This document shows positions 14,631 through 25,507 of a DNA stretch of 52,757 nucleotides, piece by piece (the first letter of the stretch is position 1; each line of letters begins with the position of its first letter). Source of the stretch: Bacteroides sp. (GTDB taxonomy: Bacteria > Bacteroidota > Bacteroidia > Bacteroidales > Muribaculaceae). The notes beneath the pieces were generated by a model. It searched no databases. It was not told the DNA's origin and worked only from the letters and a program-made list of their open reading frames with translations. Made by a program: the position numbers and the translations under genes. The stretch is from NCBI GenBank assembly GCA_014801865.1, contig JAAVDH010000015.1, positions 4,310 through 57,066 on the forward strand, written 5' to 3'.

Positions 14631-14791
14631 ATGAGGAAATGGACGATGATAAATCAAGAGAAGGAACTGGAGAATTCGGGATGGGAGAAGGTGCTGTCAG
14701 TGCTGATGTATCTGTGGCAGTTGCTGAGTGTGTTGATTCGCTTCCTGCGTCTGACGCGGAGGGAGAAGGAGAAGGACAAGGAAGCGGATTG
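14631..14791 (+). CDS. Small membrane protein at head of capsid block
   Basis: A 53-residue frame, too short for many gene callers. It starts MRKWTMINQEKELENSG (a second ATG is at 14646), has one hydrophobic helix (about WEKVLSVLMYLWQLLSVLIRFL) and a basic tail (RLTRREKEKDK). The 113-codon frame from 14639 overlaps it in another register, but its first 50 residues are acidic, Gly-rich and unlike a folded protein, so I think this frame is the coding one up to 14791. Its TGA overlaps a TTG (TTGA) in the frame of the next gene. Function unknown; it could be holin-like or anchor the capsid products to the membrane. Confidence 0.5.
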
Positions 14792-14980
14792 ACTGAGGAG
14801 GCGACTGAGGAGAATGCTGAGGAGGCCTATCTGCGTGGGCGTAATGACGCTATACGCGAGATTATGAACCGTCCCGGGCTTTATGAATCTCCCGTGGAAC
14901 GCTCAACCGGGTCGAAGAATGAGGGGGATAGCCTTACGGCAGGTTTCCTGACCCGGATTCGTCCGAGCGCTTGGGATTGA
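14788..14980 (+). CDS. Small protein upstream of capsid gene
   Basis: A 63-residue protein if started at TTG 14788; the same frame is open back to an ATG at 14639 (113 residues). The conserved-looking part is EEAYLRGRNDAIREIMNRPG followed by FLTRIRPSAWD at the C-terminus. I recall such short proteins beside capsid genes of Bacteroidales phage-like loci, but cannot name the family. The start overlaps the stop of the small membrane gene by 4 bases, suggesting coupling, or a -1 frameshift product. A scaffold or capsid-accessory role is a guess. Confidence 0.5.
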
Positions 14981-14998
14981 AGGAGGGGGAGGATGCAG

Positions 14999-15038
14999 AA
15001 TGTAAAATGCAGAATGCTGAAGGCATAATGTAAAATGC
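14999..15038. repeat. Short direct repeat AATGTAAAATGC
   Basis: The 12-mer occurs at 14999-15010 and 15027-15038 with related GCAGAATG words between. It sits in the 116-base gap before the capsid gene and probably reflects slippage-type sequence. No function is evident. Confidence 0.5.
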
Positions 15039-15096
15039 CGGATGGAGGATGTATAGTGAGATGTTGTATAATTTAAGAATTAATAGGTAATTGATT

Positions 15097-16392
15097 ATGA
15101 GTGAACTTATCAGCGGTACTCAGGGAGGTACACATGTGGCCGGCGCAGCTTTGACCACAACTTATGCCCGCGAGGCTTCACCCTCGCTTCTTGTAAATGA
15201 AGTGGACCGCAGGGTGACGCGTATACGCCCTATGTCGACTCCGCTTGACCAGATATCACGTATGGTAGGGGCTCGCTCCGCGAAGTCGATGGTGGTGGAG
15301 TATTATGCGGTAGACACAAAGAGCGGAGTTGTGGTGATGGACTCTTTGCAGGATGTGGATAAAGAGGTGTATGACAATCGCAGGGTGTATCTTCTGACGT
15401 TATCGGAGGGAAGTCTGGCTCCTACCGACACTCTGTTCGTAGCCGGAATCCGCGGGTCGGCCCCTGCTACAGGTGATGATACGGTGGTGTCACTGATGCT
15501 ATATGTCATCAAGCAGGTGACGGCTCAGACTTATCATGTAGTGGCAGTGAATGGTACGGAACAGGATGGAACGATGGGTATCAGTCCTCGTCCCGGACGC
15601 GGAACAAAACTGGTACGCATGGGACGTGGCGCTGCTGAACTTGATGTGCAGACTCCTCAGTTTGAAGCACTTCCCCGTAAGCAGCAAAATTTCTGTCAAA
15701 TTTTTAAGGCTCAGCTCGAGCAGTCGGCAGTGATGCGTCTTTCGGCCAAGGAGGTCGGGTGGCAGTTCAGCGATCAGGAGGAAGTTGCCATCATGGATAT
15801 GCGCCTTGGTATGGAGAAGAGCTATCTCTTCGGTGTGGGTGCACGTATCACCAATCCTCTTCAGGGGGATGAGGTGATGCTCACCACCGGTATATGGCAT
15901 CAGACGTCGAATACGGTGAACCTGCCTATCCATCGTCTTACGGAGAAGGATGTGATAGCCATGATGCGCAAAGCATTCACCGGTGAGAGCGCGGGTTCGG
16001 GCCGTAAGGTGCTTATAGCCGGTAGCGGACTGATAGAGGCGCTTAACTGTCTGGAATATACCCGTATGGTGACCAGCGGAGATGTGGTGACTCACTGGGG
16101 TATAGATTTCAGTGAACTCCGTTCGAAGTTCGGTACACTCTGTGTGGTACATTCGGAGGTGTTCGATCAGTGTGGTCGCGAGAATGACGGTATGATCATA
16201 GATCCGGACTATATCACCAAGTATTCGTTCATACCCTTCAAGGTGGAGCATCTTGACCTGAAGAAGAGCGGCGTGAGAAATACTGACGCTCTGGTGGTGA
16301 CCGAGGCGAGCTGTCTGGTGCTCCGTCATCCTATGGCGCATCTGCGTGTGGTGGGTGGTGTGACCGAAGATGATGAAGCGGAAGATGAGTGA
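15097..16392 (+). CDS. Phage-type major capsid protein (SU10/DUF5309-like)
   Basis: A protein of 431 residues from ATG 15097 (an in-frame TTG lies at 15091). The sequence has the outline of the SU10/DUF5309 group of HK97-fold capsid proteins: an N-arm (LLVNEVDRRVTRIRPMSTPLDQISRM), an E-loop-like region, the segment FCQIFKAQLEQSAVMRL and a later P-domain part ending LRVVGGVTEDDEAEDE. There is no signal peptide. It is followed at once by a strong terminator, as expected for a product made in large amounts. The family call is from pattern memory. No prohead protease or terminase gene is nearby. Confidence 0.75.
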   Translation: MSELISGTQGGTHVAGAALTTTYAREASPSLLVNEVDRRVTRIRPMSTPLDQISRMVGARSAKSMVVEYYAVDTKSGVVVMDSLQDVDKEVYDNRRVYLLTLSEGSLAPTDTLFVAGIRGSAPATGDDTVVSLMLYVIKQVTAQTYHVVAVNGTEQDGTMGISPRPGRGTKLVRMGRGAAELDVQTPQFEALPRKQQNFCQIFKAQLEQSAVMRLSAKEVGWQFSDQEEVAIMDMRLGMEKSYLFGVGARITNPLQGDEVMLTTGIWHQTSNTVNLPIHRLTEKDVIAMMRKAFTGESAGSGRKVLIAGSGLIEALNCLEYTRMVTSGDVVTHWGIDFSELRSKFGTLCVVHSEVFDQCGRENDGMIIDPDYITKYSFIPFKVEHLDLKKSGVRNTDALVVTEASCLVLRHPMAHLRVVGGVTEDDEAEDE

Positions 16393-16419
16393 GAGAGGGT
16401 GAATAAATAGTGATGTTCG

Positions 16420-16457
16420 ATAGGCCGCGGATGGGGCATCGGCGGCCTATTTTTTTT
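16420..16457 (+). terminator. Terminator directly after the capsid gene
   Basis: ATAGGCCGC (16420-16428) pairs with GCGGCCTAT (16442-16450) across a 13-base loop and runs into eight Ts. It separates the capsid gene from the portal part of the block. Confidence 0.9.
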
Positions 16458-16461
16458 AGAA

Positions 16462-16485
16462 TTAAACCAAATTCACTTTACTTAA
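16462..16485. repeat. 24-base motif shared with the palindromic elements
   Basis: This stretch (key words AAACCAAATT and TTACTTAA) matches 22 of 24 bases at 19263-19286 and 25454-25477. Here it lies between the capsid terminator and the ATG at 16499. It may be a leftover end of the repeat element at 19.2 kb, or a shared upstream control site; the gene at 19459 has it upstream too. Confidence 0.6.
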
Positions 16486-16498
16486 TCGTAGGAAACTA

Positions 16499-17032
16499 AT
16501 GATAGTGACTTTAGATGAGGAGCAGATGCTCGACAGGTGGTGTAGACACAAGCATCTGGGGCCGCTGCGCATGGATGCGTCAGTGGTACGTAGTGATCTG
16601 TTTGATATACGGGCCATGATGCTGGCGGAGATGAGGGGGTGGTATGGGAGAGTGCTCCGTAAGGCGCCGTTACATTTTCTGGGACTTAAGGATATGAGCA
16701 AGGTCGTGAATCTGATAGATTGCGGTGAGGGGATATATGAGGTGGCATTACCGGTAGGTGTGGTGCGTGTGGGTGAGGTGGTGATTGACGGCTGGGAGGC
16801 TCCGGCGCTCGTAGTGGCTCCCGACAGTCATGAAGCCAAGGCTCAGGCCAATCCGTTCGGCCGAGGAGGGAGTTGCCATCCTGTAGTTGTGAGGTATCCC
16901 GGCAGACTGCGGTTTTATATCGGTGAGAATCGGGGGGCTGTAATTATCGAGCGGCTTACGGCTGTGGTGGATGACGGAACGTATCAGCTTGACGATTCTC
17001 TGCTGGATTTCAGGGAGTATGTGTGTGAATGA
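16499..17032 (+). CDS. Unknown protein between capsid and portal genes
   Basis: A protein of 177 residues with no recognised family. The N-terminal half is helical (EEQMLDRWCRHKHLG... LFDIRAMMLAEMRGWYGRVL) and the second half beta-rich (YEVALPVGVVRVGEVVIDGW). There is no signal peptide. It lies 30 bases before the portal gene on the same strand. In phage head modules this position often holds head-completion or adaptor proteins, which is the most likely role but is inferred from position only. Confidence 0.65.
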   Translation: MIVTLDEEQMLDRWCRHKHLGPLRMDASVVRSDLFDIRAMMLAEMRGWYGRVLRKAPLHFLGLKDMSKVVNLIDCGEGIYEVALPVGVVRVGEVVIDGWEAPALVVAPDSHEAKAQANPFGRGGSCHPVVVRYPGRLRFYIGENRGAVIIERLTAVVDDGTYQLDDSLLDFREYVCE

Positions 17033-17062
17033 CAATAATGTAAGGGGATATAGTATAGGGGT

Positions 17063-18496
17063 ATGAATCAGATGTTGGAAAGAGCCTTTGAGGCGTGGTG
17101 TGGATGTGAGGAGTTGAGGAGTCGCCGCCGCAGGTATAAGAGATATACTTTCGGTGATCAGTGGAGTGATCCTGTGGAGATGCCCTCGGGGAAGTGGAGT
17201 ACGGAGTGGGAGTTTGCGGTGCAAGACGGTAAGCGGCCTCAGACGAATAATATCATACGTCAGCTGGTGAAGAGTGTGGTAGGGAGATTTCGTTACCGTA
17301 TGGTGCGTGAGAAAACTTCGGCAGCGGAGCTGGGTGTGGACCGCGAGGTGGCGATGCGCAATCATCTTGACGAACTTGACTGCCGTAGTATGGAGGAGTT
17401 TCTTATATCGGGTTGTGTGGTGCAGCGCGTGGTCATGGAGAAGCGTATGGCGGGCGATGGTGTGTGGGTTGATATTGTGAGCCCCGAGAAGTTTTTTGTG
17501 AATCGCTTTACCGATCCGAGAGGGCTTGATATAGAGCTTGTGGGTATGCTTCACGATATGAGTATGCGGGAGGTGATGATGAGGTTCGGAGATGATACGC
17601 GTCGATGTGAGGAGCTGGCAAAGATATATTCCGATTCAATGCGTGAGATGAATCTGCTCGGGGGCGTTCCGGCGGTGGGTGATGCGGCGGCAAGTGAGTT
17701 TTATCATGGCGAGAGAGGAAAATGCAGGGTGATAGAGGTGTGGAGTCTTGAGAGCCGCAATGTGGTGAAATGTCATGATACGCATCGCGGCAAGATGTTT
17801 ATAGTGCCTGAGAGCGAGATGGTGAAGATCGAGCGCCTTAACCGTAGCCGTGAGGCGGCGGGAGAGGGGAGAATCGAGATACGTCAGTGTGTAACGATGA
17901 GATGGCACGTGAGGTTTTTCAGTCCGTCGGGTGTGGTGCTCGATGAATATGATTCACCTTTCGGACATAATCAGCATCCGTTTGCGGTGAAGTTTTATCC
18001 GATGATAGATGGTGAGGTGCATTCGTTTGTGGAGGATGTGATAGATCAGCAGCGTCATGTCAATAGACTGATAACGCTTATAGACCATGTGATGGGTGTG
18101 TCGGCCAAGGGTGTGTTGCTGTTTCCTGAGGAGCAGCGCCTGCCGGGGATGTCGTGGGGTCAGGTGGCCGATGCGTGGTCGGACTGCAACGGGGTGTTGC
18201 CCTATCGTGTGGGCAGATTTCCCGGTATAGAGCCTCATCAGGTGGTGAGTAGCGGCGGAAATGCAGGTGCGTCAGATCTGCTACAGATAGAATTGCGGCT
18301 GATGGAGCAGGTGTCGGGGGTGAGCGGAGCACTTCAGGGTCGCCATACGTCGGGGGTTAACTCGGCGGCACTTTACGAGGCTCAGACGGATAATAGCGTT
18401 ATAAATCTGCTGGATCTGATAGAGGCTTTCGAGTCGTTCAGGGCAGGACGTAATGATCTGGTGAACGAATGTGAAGTATGTGGATGGAATGCTTAA
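17063..18496 (+). CDS. Podovirus-like portal protein
   Basis: A protein of 477 residues resembling P22-type portal proteins: an N-terminal basic helical part (RRRRYKRYTFGDQWSDP), the QTNNIIRQLVKSVVGRFRYR segment typical of portals, a stem-like region (DVIDQQRHVNRLITLIDHVM) and a crown-side part (IELRLMEQVSGVSGALQG). Phage portals form the dodecameric DNA gateway at one capsid vertex. The length is shorter than P22 (725 residues) but normal for the simpler portals. The frame is intact. A portal without a terminase beside it is the strangest feature of the block. Confidence 0.75.
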   Translation: MNQMLERAFEAWCGCEELRSRRRRYKRYTFGDQWSDPVEMPSGKWSTEWEFAVQDGKRPQTNNIIRQLVKSVVGRFRYRMVREKTSAAELGVDREVAMRNHLDELDCRSMEEFLISGCVVQRVVMEKRMAGDGVWVDIVSPEKFFVNRFTDPRGLDIELVGMLHDMSMREVMMRFGDDTRRCEELAKIYSDSMREMNLLGGVPAVGDAAASEFYHGERGKCRVIEVWSLESRNVVKCHDTHRGKMFIVPESEMVKIERLNRSREAAGEGRIEIRQCVTMRWHVRFFSPSGVVLDEYDSPFGHNQHPFAVKFYPMIDGEVHSFVEDVIDQQRHVNRLITLIDHVMGVSAKGVLLFPEEQRLPGMSWGQVADAWSDCNGVLPYRVGRFPGIEPHQVVSSGGNAGASDLLQIELRLMEQVSGVSGALQGRHTSGVNSAALYEAQTDNSVINLLDLIEAFESFRAGRNDLVNECEVCGWNA

Positions 18497-18541
18497 CGTT
18501 AGTTAACATCAGAGGGCAGGGATGGGGGACACCCCGGAATA

Positions 18542-18549
18542 TAATTTTG
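18542..18549 (+). promoter_or_regulatory. Possible -7 box before the basic protein gene
   Basis: TAATTTTG followed by C in the 114-base gap after the portal gene, 62 bases before the next ATG. No TTTG at the expected distance; weak call. Confidence 0.3.
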
Positions 18550-18610
18550 CCACGGAGATAATTAACGGAGGCTTCGACATCGGCAGTCTCATAAAAAGTA
18601 AGTTAGGGAT

Positions 18611-19072
18611 ATGGATATGACATTTACAGAGGCCCCTCTGTCGTCGGGAATTGCGGCAGAGGGTAACGCGCAGGTGATGAGTCGCCGGCGTCACAGGGAG
18701 TTTCTGGCGGCATGCCGTAGGGTGGTGGATGCACGGCCTAAGGGAGCGGCACCGCTCAAGGTGAGCGAAGTGGCCGGTCTGGCGGCAGAGAGTCCCGCGC
18801 CGAGGTATTATGTATCGTTTGACTACGCATTACGAATGTATAATCGCATAAGACGTGAGGGGTCGGCAGGCGTGGCCGGGCCTATGGGCAGGTGTTGGCA
18901 GGAGATTGCTGACAAGGTGACGGCAATGGTGGAGCAGTCGGGTGGGAAGCTCAGTGTGAAACATGCTCTGGCCAGAGTGCTTGCAGATGAGAGGGCTTCG
19001 TCGTTTTTCCTGACTCAGGCAACTGCCCGAAGACTATATCACCATGCATTGCGTCAGAGGAGAAGGAAGTGA
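18611..19072 (+). CDS. Basic, helical protein of capsid block
   Basis: A protein of 153 residues, strongly basic (SRRRHREFLAACRRVVDAR; LYHHALRQRRRK at the end), predicted all-helical. The segment APRYYVSFDYALRMYNRI resembles short motifs I have seen in uncharacterised Bacteroidetes phage-like proteins. DNA binding is plausible from charge, for example a small terminase-like or packaging-linked role, but no domain is identified. The repeat element at 19075 begins two bases after its stop codon. Confidence 0.65.
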   Translation: MDMTFTEAPLSSGIAAEGNAQVMSRRRHREFLAACRRVVDARPKGAAPLKVSEVAGLAAESPAPRYYVSFDYALRMYNRIRREGSAGVAGPMGRCWQEIADKVTAMVEQSGGKLSVKHALARVLADERASSFFLTQATARRLYHHALRQRRRK

Positions 19073-19074
19073 AT

Positions 19075-19242
19075 AAGTAAGTCTGCAAAATTATTTTAAT
19101 GTATGAGGAGATCAGTCTTTTAACTTCGGTGTCTTTTCGGCGCTGTACACTCTATGTGTCAGTCGTGTAGCTCACTACATGCCTTCGCCATCAAGCGAAA
19201 ATCATCCGGAAACAGTATAAAATAATTTCTGCGACTTATTTA
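19075..19242. mobile_element. MITE-like palindromic element A, copy 1
   Basis: About 168 bases with inverted ends: AAGTAAGTCTGCAAAATTAT at the left, and TATAAAATAATTTCTGCGAC at the right, which is its imperfect complement. The inside matches the copy at 25261-25443 over most of its length, including CGCCATCAAGCGAAAATCAT. There is no coding potential. Elements with inverted ends, no gene and several copies in intergenic DNA fit a MITE or an RNA-structured repeat. Confidence 0.75.
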
Positions 19243-19247
19243 GAATT

Positions 19248-19444
19248 AGAGTATGTTTACTTTTAAACCAAATTTACATTACTTAAGAGTATGACTAATT
19301 TTTGATTTCATCACAAAGAATCTTTTGGGTGCTTTTCCAAAGTTTTCATCGGTCACGATGCCCGCATCGCTCCCTCTTCAACTTTGGAAAATTCCGCCAA
19401 AATCTTCATTTGTGATAAAATCATTTAAAAGTAAACATACTCTT
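19248..19444. repeat. Long imperfect hairpin element B, copy 1
   Basis: GAGTATGTTTACTTTTAAA at 19249-19267 is the complement of the right end (19424-19444). Inner parts also pair, for example GATTT.ATCACAAA with TTTGTGAT.AAATC and TTTTCCAAAGTT with AACTTTGGAAAA, and the tip is GATGCCCGCATC. The copy at 25444-25494 keeps only the outer arms. It ends 15 bases before the ATG of the next gene. Confidence 0.75.
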
Positions 19445-19458
19445 AAAGATAGAAAGCC

Positions 19459-19893
19459 ATGATAGTAATAAATGTAGAGGCGGTAACGACCGTCATATAT
19501 GCGCAGAGTGCGCTCTATTATCATCTTCACGGAGGTGAACGTCCTGCGGTGTTGTGCCGTGACCAGCAGGCGGCTCTCGAAGAATGTGTGCGCGGCGGGT
19601 TTGCCACGATGATACTGCGACTGTATCCTTATATGAGTGATGTGAGGTTGGAGGATAGTTTGATGCTGGGGTGTGAGTTGAGGGAAGAGTATGGCGGAAC
19701 TGTGCAGGCGAAGCATCTTCGTGCAATACTCGAGACGGCGCTGGCTCATTATGTGATACATCTTGTGGCCATGGATTATGACCACAAGATGTCGGATCGT
19801 TATCTGGCGCAGTATCTGACAGTGATGGGCGATCTTGAGGCGAGCCTGAGCGGATGTAATACAGTGGTGCGCCTTACAGCTCACTATTTATAG
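19459..19893 (+). CDS. Unknown helical protein, last gene of capsid block
   Basis: A protein of 144 residues, not recognised. Predicted helical (AVTTVIYAQSALYYHLHGG, DQQAALEECVRGGFATMIL, LRAILETALAHYVIHLVAMDYD). There is no signal peptide or clear membrane segment. Its opening (MIVINVEAV, ATGATAGTAA) resembles the start of the 16499 gene (MIVTLDEEQ), and both are preceded by the same 24-base motif. It could be a head-tail connector-type protein by position. It ends 22 bases from the convergent transporter gene. Confidence 0.65.
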   Translation: MIVINVEAVTTVIYAQSALYYHLHGGERPAVLCRDQQAALEECVRGGFATMILRLYPYMSDVRLEDSLMLGCELREEYGGTVQAKHLRAILETALAHYVIHLVAMDYDHKMSDRYLAQYLTVMGDLEASLSGCNTVVRLTAHYL

Positions 19894-25233: not shown

Positions 25234-25260
25234 TGTTTTTATCGATTAATGTATTAGAGT

Positions 25261-25443
25261 AAGTAAGTCTACAAAATTATTTTAATGTATAACTAAGTAA
25301 GTCTTTTAACTATCTTCGGTGTCTTTTCGGTGCTTTTCACTCTCTGTCTCAGTTGTGTAGCTCGCTACACGCCTTCGCCATCAAGCGAAAATCATCCGAA
25401 AATACTCTCGAAGATAGTATAAAATAATTTTTACGACTTACTT
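25261..25443. mobile_element. MITE-like palindromic element A, copy 2
   Basis: About 183 bases. AAGTAAGTCTACAAAATTAT at the left is complementary, with few mismatches, to TATAAAATAATTTTTACGAC followed by TTACTTA at the right. Inside, CTATCTTCG pairs with CGAAGATAG, and GTGTAGC with GCTACAC, so the single strand could fold fully. Nearly the same sequence as 19075-19242. The direct repeat AAGTAAGTC occurs a second time inside the left arm. Confidence 0.8.
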
Positions 25444-25494
25444 ATGTTTACTTTTAAACCAAATTTACATTACTTAAAAGTAAACATACTCTTA
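25444..25494. repeat. Element B, short copy 2
   Basis: ATGTTTACTTTTAA (25444-25457) pairs perfectly with TTAAAAGTAAACAT (25474-25487), followed by ACTCTTA. The order A then B is the same as at 19.1-19.4 kb, but the 150-base interior is missing. It ends 14 bases before the pnp stop and could double as pnp terminator. Confidence 0.75.
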
Positions 25495-25507
25495 ATCAGT
25501 CGGGGAA

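Follow-up and report, generated by a model that had tools for sequence, protein, structure and literature searches.

The window examined here, a 52,757-nucleotide stretch of DNA from a Bacteroides sp. genome of the family Muribaculaceae (assembly GCA_014801865.1, contig JAAVDH010000015.1, positions 4,310 to 57,066 of the forward strand), carries a block of six intact, same-strand genes placed directly between lpxB/GH95 and an Asp-Al_Ex permease/dnaG. We put a probability of roughly 0.7 on the reading that this block is one locus of a gene transfer agent (GTA)-like system, whose ancestor was a temperate phage, probably with a short tail, and whose genes are spread around the chromosome. In order, the block encodes a scaffold-like protein, a major capsid protein, the protein g177, a portal protein, and the proteins g153 and g144; two further genes, for the large terminase subunit (TerL) and for a protein that we call c800, lie elsewhere in the genome. 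These eight phage-derived genes, set A below, are kept intact and are inherited mainly with the host lineage.

Phage-derived genes at separate loci

The capsid protein (431 amino acids [aa] from the ATG at 15097; positions 15097 to 16392, plus strand) is of the SU10/DUF5309 type (PF17236, E = 2.2e-49; phrog_26635, E = 2.6e-72), and the portal protein (477 aa; 17063 to 18496, plus strand) is of the P22 type (PF16510, E = 2.7e-20; phrog_156, E = 1.3e-37). An earlier sequence-only reading of the window had correctly described these two frames as intact and on the same strand, and had correctly placed them between lpxB/GH95 and an AspT-like transporter/dnaG. It had also taken them for capsid and portal genes without the rest of a phage and without a terminase. 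The missing terminase holds for the block, but not for the genome: with the terminase of phage BF1-TP2 as the query, we found a matching TerL on contig C29 (G000:C29:2480-4117), whereas the block is on C15. A profile search located c800 (∼840 aa) on contig C11 (G000:C11:8623-11130). Phage-derived genes therefore occupy at least three places in this genome, and the rest of the phage is scattered rather than absent.

The TerL frame measures 802 aa from its first start codon (L064:1841-4246, on G000:C29), and no Pfam model matched it at an E value of 1e-3. Across the family, most TerL matches listed were a distinct version that starts at about residue 72 of the BF1-TP2 query and is 40 to 49% identical to it. 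The motifs KARQxGxST, [ST]E, ESTAxG, DxGG, and HDD, which we take to be motor and nuclease motifs, were kept in all 28 aligned rows (27 host rows and phage BF1-TP2), and the TerL profile aligned with T4 gp17 over both the ATPase part and the C-terminal nuclease part. These conserved residues only allow packaging. In 16 of 27 TerL loci, c800 was encoded directly upstream of TerL on the same strand, as a conserved protein of about 820 aa.

A search of 50,697 phage records with the capsid returned three matches only, the Bacteroides phages BF1-TP2 (PQ571263), BKO1-TP3 (PQ571269), and BS-TP4 (PQ571277), and the portal matched the same three; identities to the window's capsid and portal were 34 to 37%. 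A viral contig collection searched with patterns for the capsid and its close relatives gave no match. All eight host profiles (scaffold-like, capsid, g177, portal, g153, g144, TerL, and c800) matched the temperate phage BKO1-TP3, and six of them (all but the scaffold-like protein and g144) matched BF1-TP2; the likeness of BS-TP4 to the host set consists of its capsid and portal matches. c800 is a homologue of BF1-TP2 gp33 (E = 2.3e-30) and BKO1-TP3 gp34 (E = 1e-34). The small proteins of the block are not orphans either, as g177, g153, g144, and the 113-aa scaffold-like protein have homologues in this phage group, including its prophage copies. Unlike the scattered host genes, the three phages have genomes of 64 to 68 kb, and BF1-TP2 and BKO1-TP3 carry a tyrosine recombinase/integrase, replication genes, and a giant protein of 3,633 or 5,553 aa. 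In the records of these two phages, a protein labeled tail spike (L105:6117-8144 and L107:4872-6986, respectively) is the large terminase by homology.

Distribution and gene order in Muribaculaceae

The capsid was matched in 182 of 198 Muribaculaceae genomes, usually as one copy, and in 29 of 30 sampled genera. Most matches listed had no internal stop, and among the matches listed identity to the window's capsid was 45 to 59%. It is important to note that the family counts include some phage-type copies. Ten of the 182 capsid matches were weak (E above 1e-17; G030, G069, G100, G102, G139, G167, G168, G176, G182, and G194) and two were phage type (G118 and G131), and their removal leaves 170 of 198 genomes; the matches in G119, G191, and G196 (E = 1e-72 to 1e-75) were retained. 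Without such cleaning, the portal was matched in 184, TerL in 179, the c800 profile in 174, and g153 in 167 of 196 genomes.

Some of the 80 loci in which the capsid was found in the collection of named genomes are broken off by contig ends. Even so, a check proposed by the sequence-only reading, a search for the same gene order in relatives, found the exact six-gene order of the window in 23 of these 80 loci; Paramuribaculum intestinale DSM 100749 (L135) is one of the strains with the block. In 10 other loci the portal lay upstream of the scaffold and capsid genes, and 19 had scaffold and capsid only; the scaffold-like profile was matched in 71 of the 80. Because the six-gene order is conserved, chance can be ruled out as the origin of the block. 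In one genus, all six block genes stand together with c800 and TerL (L203, the only such case among the 80 loci, and L089), and this grouping links TerL and c800 to the block.

Elsewhere the genes have come apart to different degrees. Among the stretches read, those of genera g20 and g22 had TerL within about 10 kb of capsid and portal. On the single contig G173:C1, by comparison, TerL (position 937079), portal (1358458), and capsid (1893624) lie up to about 1 Mb apart. The portal was the only core gene in 10 stretches (L090, L114 to L116, L121 to L125, and L127), and 7 of 21 capsid loci had no portal nearby. When neighbors within 3.5 kb of the core genes were clustered across genera, six clusters recurred in at least three genera; by eye all were ordinary and none had the look of cargo. 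A protein of 233 to 239 aa adjoins the scaffold gene in g4, g10, and g11.

Inheritance and selection

We compared quick trees, supported by the Shimodaira-Hasegawa-like approximate likelihood ratio test (SH-aLRT) only, with genus and family labels. The capsid tree (61 rows) split phages from hosts at a support of 100, and its 22 labels required 21 changes, which is the minimum and was reached in 0 of 200 shuffles. The window's genus, g1 (13 rows), formed one clade at 99. Genus g6 needed 2 changes, being broken by one row labeled g3 that is identical to a g6 row (G127:C169 and G116:C262); this is probably misbinning, and the G127 assembly is probably mixed because it had three capsid matches. 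In the portal (67 rows) and c800 (37 rows) trees, the family, its sister families, and the phages were each on one side of a branch supported at 93 to 100; g6 needed 4 changes and g1 needed 2 in the portal tree, and the long branches of the c800 tree may mislead. Most genera were clades in both the capsid and the portal trees. The TerL tree (40 rows) separated phages (99), hosts (99), and the family (100), with many weak deep forks.

Ratios of nonsynonymous to synonymous substitution rates (dN/dS; NG86 method) were calculated for same-genus pairs with at least 70% identity and dS under 1.3, the remaining pairs being saturated or undefined. These ratios, which the sequence-only reading had proposed computing for capsid and portal, were 0.024 to 0.202 for the capsid (8 pairs), 0.043 to 0.245 for the portal (8 pairs, some on partial sequences), and 0.072 and 0.093 for TerL (2 pairs); c800 had no same-genus pair at 70% identity and hence no ratio. 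Capsid, portal, and TerL are thus under purifying selection. The domestication favored by the sequence-only reading is strongly supported by conservation across the family, separation of host from phage copies for four genes, intact frames, and dN/dS far below 1. Family copies of four proteins also had a lower mean side-chain carbon content than phage copies, a bias reported for RcGTA, but we did not use this comparison because G+C content differs too.

Small genes and other features of the block

The scaffold-like protein (113 aa; 14639 to 14980, plus strand) is a shortened relative of BKO1-TP3 gp48 (259 aa), which is encoded just upstream of the phage capsid gene. Its profile matched gp48 at E = 2.7e-05 and did not match gp57 of BF1-TP2, and a YLRG motif was conserved in nine aligned loci. 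The sequence-only reading had chosen a small protein with a membrane helix at this place, but that 53-aa frame (14631 to 14792) had tblastn matches in 0 of 129 partly overlapping related loci and the overlapping 113-aa frame in 45 of 129; we therefore take the latter as the gene.

g177 (16499 to 17032, plus strand) is a head-tail adaptor-like protein, a role suggested by the place of its homologues in the phages, two genes downstream of the capsid gene; its profile matched phage gp54 and gp45 (E = 7.5e-13 and 5.9e-07). The window's portal has a short C terminus: its phage homologues measure 622 and 656 aa and extend about 120 to 136 residues beyond its end. The basic protein g153 (18611 to 19072, plus strand; matches to phage gp58 and gp49 at E = 3e-15 and 3.2e-14) is a candidate small terminase subunit (TerS) because its phage homologue is encoded two genes upstream of the phage TerL. 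g144 (19459 to 19893, plus strand) is a small protein related to a paralogous phage family encoded beside the c800 homologue; its profile matched BKO1-TP3 gp36 (E = 1.7e-05) and two prophage copies (E = 4.8e-08 and 3.2e-05), with no match in BF1-TP2.

The capsid gene is followed by its own intrinsic-terminator-like hairpin and U-run (16419 to 16451, plus strand; −23.3 kcal/mol; z = −4.22; equally stable shuffles, 0 of 200), in agreement with the sequence-only reading. Its description of the base content as host-like was right for overall G+C (0.512 in the block and 0.509 in the window), but at third codon positions G+C was 0.44 to 0.58 in the six block genes versus 0.60 to 0.68 in four flanking genes.

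A dispersed intergenic repeat at 19071 to 19446, with inverted-repeat arms of 56 nucleotides that are 71% complementary, separates g153 from g144. It recurs at 25257 to 25495 and as a fragment at 16462 to 16500, and copies or pieces are present on C29 and C11, including pieces just after the genome's TerL (L064:4404-4525) and after c800 (L108:11213-11239). Such a repeat might promote the rearrangements that scatter the genes. The sequence TTAAACCAAATTnACnTTACTTAA upstream of g177 and g144 was considered as a shared promoter or regulon motif and rejected, as it is part of this repeat (also at 25257 to 25495 and on C29).

Related sets in six further families

A TerL profile matched 24 of 295 genomes of the order, 4 in the window's family and 20 outside it. 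Seventeen of these 20 represent six further families, each by two or three genomes from a single genus, which shows TerL in these genomes and not necessarily in every sampled member of those families. Two more were partial, and the match in G216 was weaker and phage-like in look. All 17 further-family genomes also had the capsid, and 16 had the portal. Stretches were read in seven genomes, one or two per family. In five of the seven, c800 adjoins the portal. Portal frames were 622 to 724 aa and scaffold frames about 255 to 340 aa. Host genes were again close by: ribosomal protein L21 is encoded near the portal of G264, and a BLAST comparison with it points to the same neighbor in G224; ribosomal protein S2 and alaS are about 6 kb from TerL in G256. 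A conserved protein of 83 to 115 aa is encoded directly upstream of TerL in these sister families (L210:13439-13690, L226:8445-8702, L219:8876-9223, and L223:11075-11401).

Five of the seven genomes read carry an extra operon, next to TerL in four of them and next to the portal in the other. It encodes proteins related to BKO1-TP3 gp57 and to sections of the giant phage protein. These products may be DNA-ejection proteins; their PHROG matches were weak.

A second set in genomes lacking set A

Nine genomes with only weak capsid matches carried a phage-type TerL, six of genus g30 (G030, G069, G100, G139, G182, and G194) and three of g4 (G102, G168, and G176). In all of them but G182 a portal (464 to 579 aa) was present in the stretches read, with TerL and portal on different contigs in G069 and G102. 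In six of the genomes, the capsid of this second set, set B, shared 54 to 60% identity with that of the G090 and G139 prophages and 21 to 24% with that of the window; no capsid was seen in G069, and the one in G102 was seen in part only. The capsid of G176 was 99% like that of G168, and dN/dS between these two genomes was 0.019 for the capsid and 0.038 for TerL. The surroundings include host genes: Pfam (L245) and BLAST (L250 and L251) identified phosphoenolpyruvate carboxykinase, and nusA and infB are present in L249. A search of the set B stretches for the giant phage protein matched only a separate prophage of G139 (L248); integrases were not searched for.

Two genomes of the window's genus, G118 and G131, carried a further type, with TerL in a stretch with serine-biosynthesis-like genes or beside engA; this type may be a prophage, its TerL or portal being near contig ends. 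In the TerL and portal trees, the rows of set B and of G118 and G131 fell among the phages, away from set A. From the loci read, set B looks like the replacement of one domesticated set by another. An anti-correlation between set A and prophages, as would suit immunity, had been considered for 11 genomes without set A and with a phage-type TerL, and was dropped because their loci show the second set in mostly host surroundings.

Discussion

GTAs are defined, in the parts of PMC9662315 drawn on here, as virion-like particles formed by caudoviricete-derived proteins that encapsidate mostly random host DNA and deliver it to other cells; they are fully endogenized, often at multiple loci, their genome is not fully packageable, and they are inherited vertically and co-diversify with the host. 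The window's genome has its genes on C15, C29, and C11, and those of G173:C1 lie far apart on one contig. Inheritance, judged by genus and family labels, is mainly vertical, with hosts apart from phages at 99 to 100 in the TerL, portal, and c800 trees. The eight genes are homologous to those of tailed phages, and their products would in part correspond to caudoviricete-derived particle proteins. A prophage would be a contiguous integrated genome with integration, replication, lysis, and structural genes, whereas here six genes stand between host genes and TerL and c800 are on other contigs, although integrase and lysis genes were not looked for by profile.

A motor, gate, shell, connector, and tail-like protein, conserved and, in the loci read, standing apart from replication and integration genes, are what a GTA needs, and we therefore favor the packaging of host DNA into small particles. 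In such a system, the capsid protein and the shortened scaffold would build a small capsid, with the portal as its DNA gate; the smaller head that we infer fits the loss of the portal C terminus and of most of the scaffold. The TerS-like g153 and TerL would fill it with host DNA, probably by a headful mechanism and without the specificity of a phage, while g177, c800, and g144 would form the connector and a short tail. A few cells would lyse and release particles that deliver or expose host DNA. The genes themselves should not spread in the manner of a phage, because loci at such distances from one another are unlikely to end up in one particle.

Several observations weigh against this reading. 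Particles, packaged host DNA, and transfer are predictions. The position of the gp17 Walker A lysine is a glycine in the TerL rows, which have a lysine four or five residues earlier, as do phage TerL proteins, and the N-terminal part of the window genome's TerL contains an insertion, rich in lysine and more than 100 residues long, that has no counterpart in the other aligned rows. In the TerL tree the window's genus, g1, is split and needs 4 changes, and some genomes carry neither set. The database matches of c800 are weak and its role is conjectural; proteins of P22 and T7 (including P22 gp10 and T7 gp12) gave no hhalign match to c800, g177, or the gp57-like protein, a result without weight because the positive control, the portal against the P22 portal, failed likewise. 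In the window's family, the set yielded no gene for lysis, receptor binding, or ejection, though lysis genes were the object of no dedicated search. Ejection-like profiles were only sporadic there (14 and 12 of 119 genomes), with 10 of those 12 matches inside frames of more than 2,000 aa, as in phages, and neither profile matched the window's own genome. Because these matches are sporadic, the ejection genes seem to have dropped out of the family's version or to have changed past recognition. The conserved set differs in this from other genes of its phage group, which occur only sporadically in the family.

We consider it unlikely that the scattered genes instead make a PBSX-like killing particle, which would package random host DNA and act on competitors without gene transfer. 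Such a particle would need the same TerL, portal, and capsid, the scarcity of ejection-like proteins in the window's family would suit it, and the fast evolution of c800 (long branches; no two same-genus copies reaching 70% identity) would be expected of a surface or tail protein. However, the ejection-like genes beside TerL or portal in five of the seven sister-family genomes read point to delivery as the ancestral role, and no tail-sheath, lysis, or immunity gene was recognized, though no dedicated search was made. Somewhat less probable still is interference with phages, in which capsid, portal, and terminase parts would act as decoys that poison the assembly of related phages. The short portal and scaffold could be dominant-negative, and no set A capsid turned up in the nine set B genomes. 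Yet TerL keeps the phage residues in both domains, prophages of the same group coexist with set A (for instance, in G184 and G090), and G139 has both set B and a prophage.

The nanocompartment suggested by the sequence-only reading, a protein shell in the manner of encapsulins with the portal as a relic, we regard as very improbable. To our knowledge, encapsulins come without terminase and portal. Although the capsid gene has its own terminator and a portal was not nearby in 7 of 21 capsid loci, the portal, TerL, and TerS-like genes are about as widespread as the capsid, portal and TerL are under purifying selection, and none of the six recurrent neighbor clusters resembles cargo. Encapsulins share with the host set a bacterially domesticated HK97-fold capsid and differ in being shells with dedicated, linked enzyme cargo (PMC8346489, in the part drawn on here); the words terminase and portal do not occur in the text of that paper. 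Finally, a decayed prophage whose structural core survived by chance, the other option of the sequence-only reading, can be rejected: the portal is truncated and neither integrase nor att repeats had been seen by that reading, but the capsid occurs across nearly all sampled genera mostly without internal stops, its trees are host-like, and neither a restriction to frameshifted prophages nor a dN/dS near 1 was found.

The GTA-like reading can be set beside two known systems, as far as the parts of the cited papers drawn on here describe them. RcGTA and other alphaproteobacterial type I GTAs share a caudoviricete-derived capsid and terminase, mostly vertical inheritance in a clade distinct from viral homologues, and several chromosomal loci, five for RcGTA (PMC9662315, PMC7947584). 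They come from another phage ancestor; the present set, with its SU10-type capsid and P22-type portal, is known from genes alone, and in many genomes even capsid, portal, TerL, and c800 occupy loci distinct from one another, unlike in RcGTA. FpGTA of Faecalibacterium is likewise from a gut commensal, is probably podovirus-like, has TerS, TerL, portal, scaffold, and capsid, and occupies two loci about 125 kb apart in one strain (PMC12946183). It belongs to another phylum, consists of a 10.5-kb operon and a 5.5-kb structural and lysis operon, and has been shown to make particles with ∼9 kb of DNA, whereas the set described here is so far a matter of gene content; the main text of that paper contains no mention of "Muribacul" or "Duncaniella" (PMC12946183).

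In a wider form, Muribaculaceae-type bacteria and the six related families would make small podovirus-like gene-transfer particles from scattered phage genes, and selection would have made lineages without set A replace it by set B, and perhaps by a third set, from the same phage group. We would give this about even odds. GTAs with known genes have been described in few lineages (PMC9662315, PMC12946183, in the parts drawn on here). A literature search over titles and abstract openings, with preprints and most subscription papers outside its reach, returned no description of such a system in Bacteroidales. If our reading is true, this would be, as far as the literature was searched, the first such mainly vertically inherited set in the phylum, present in one gut family and six more families of its order. 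Gene-cluster tools would probably miss it because its genes are at separate loci and the window genome's TerL has no Pfam match.

With this system, particle-borne exchange of chromosomal DNA among gut Bacteroidales can be tested directly. The replacement of one set by another, if true, would be rare evidence that such particles benefit their hosts. A capsid, portal, and motor that are scattered, yet conserved and inherited, look less like the remains of a virus than like equipment with which the bacteria package and hand on DNA of their own.

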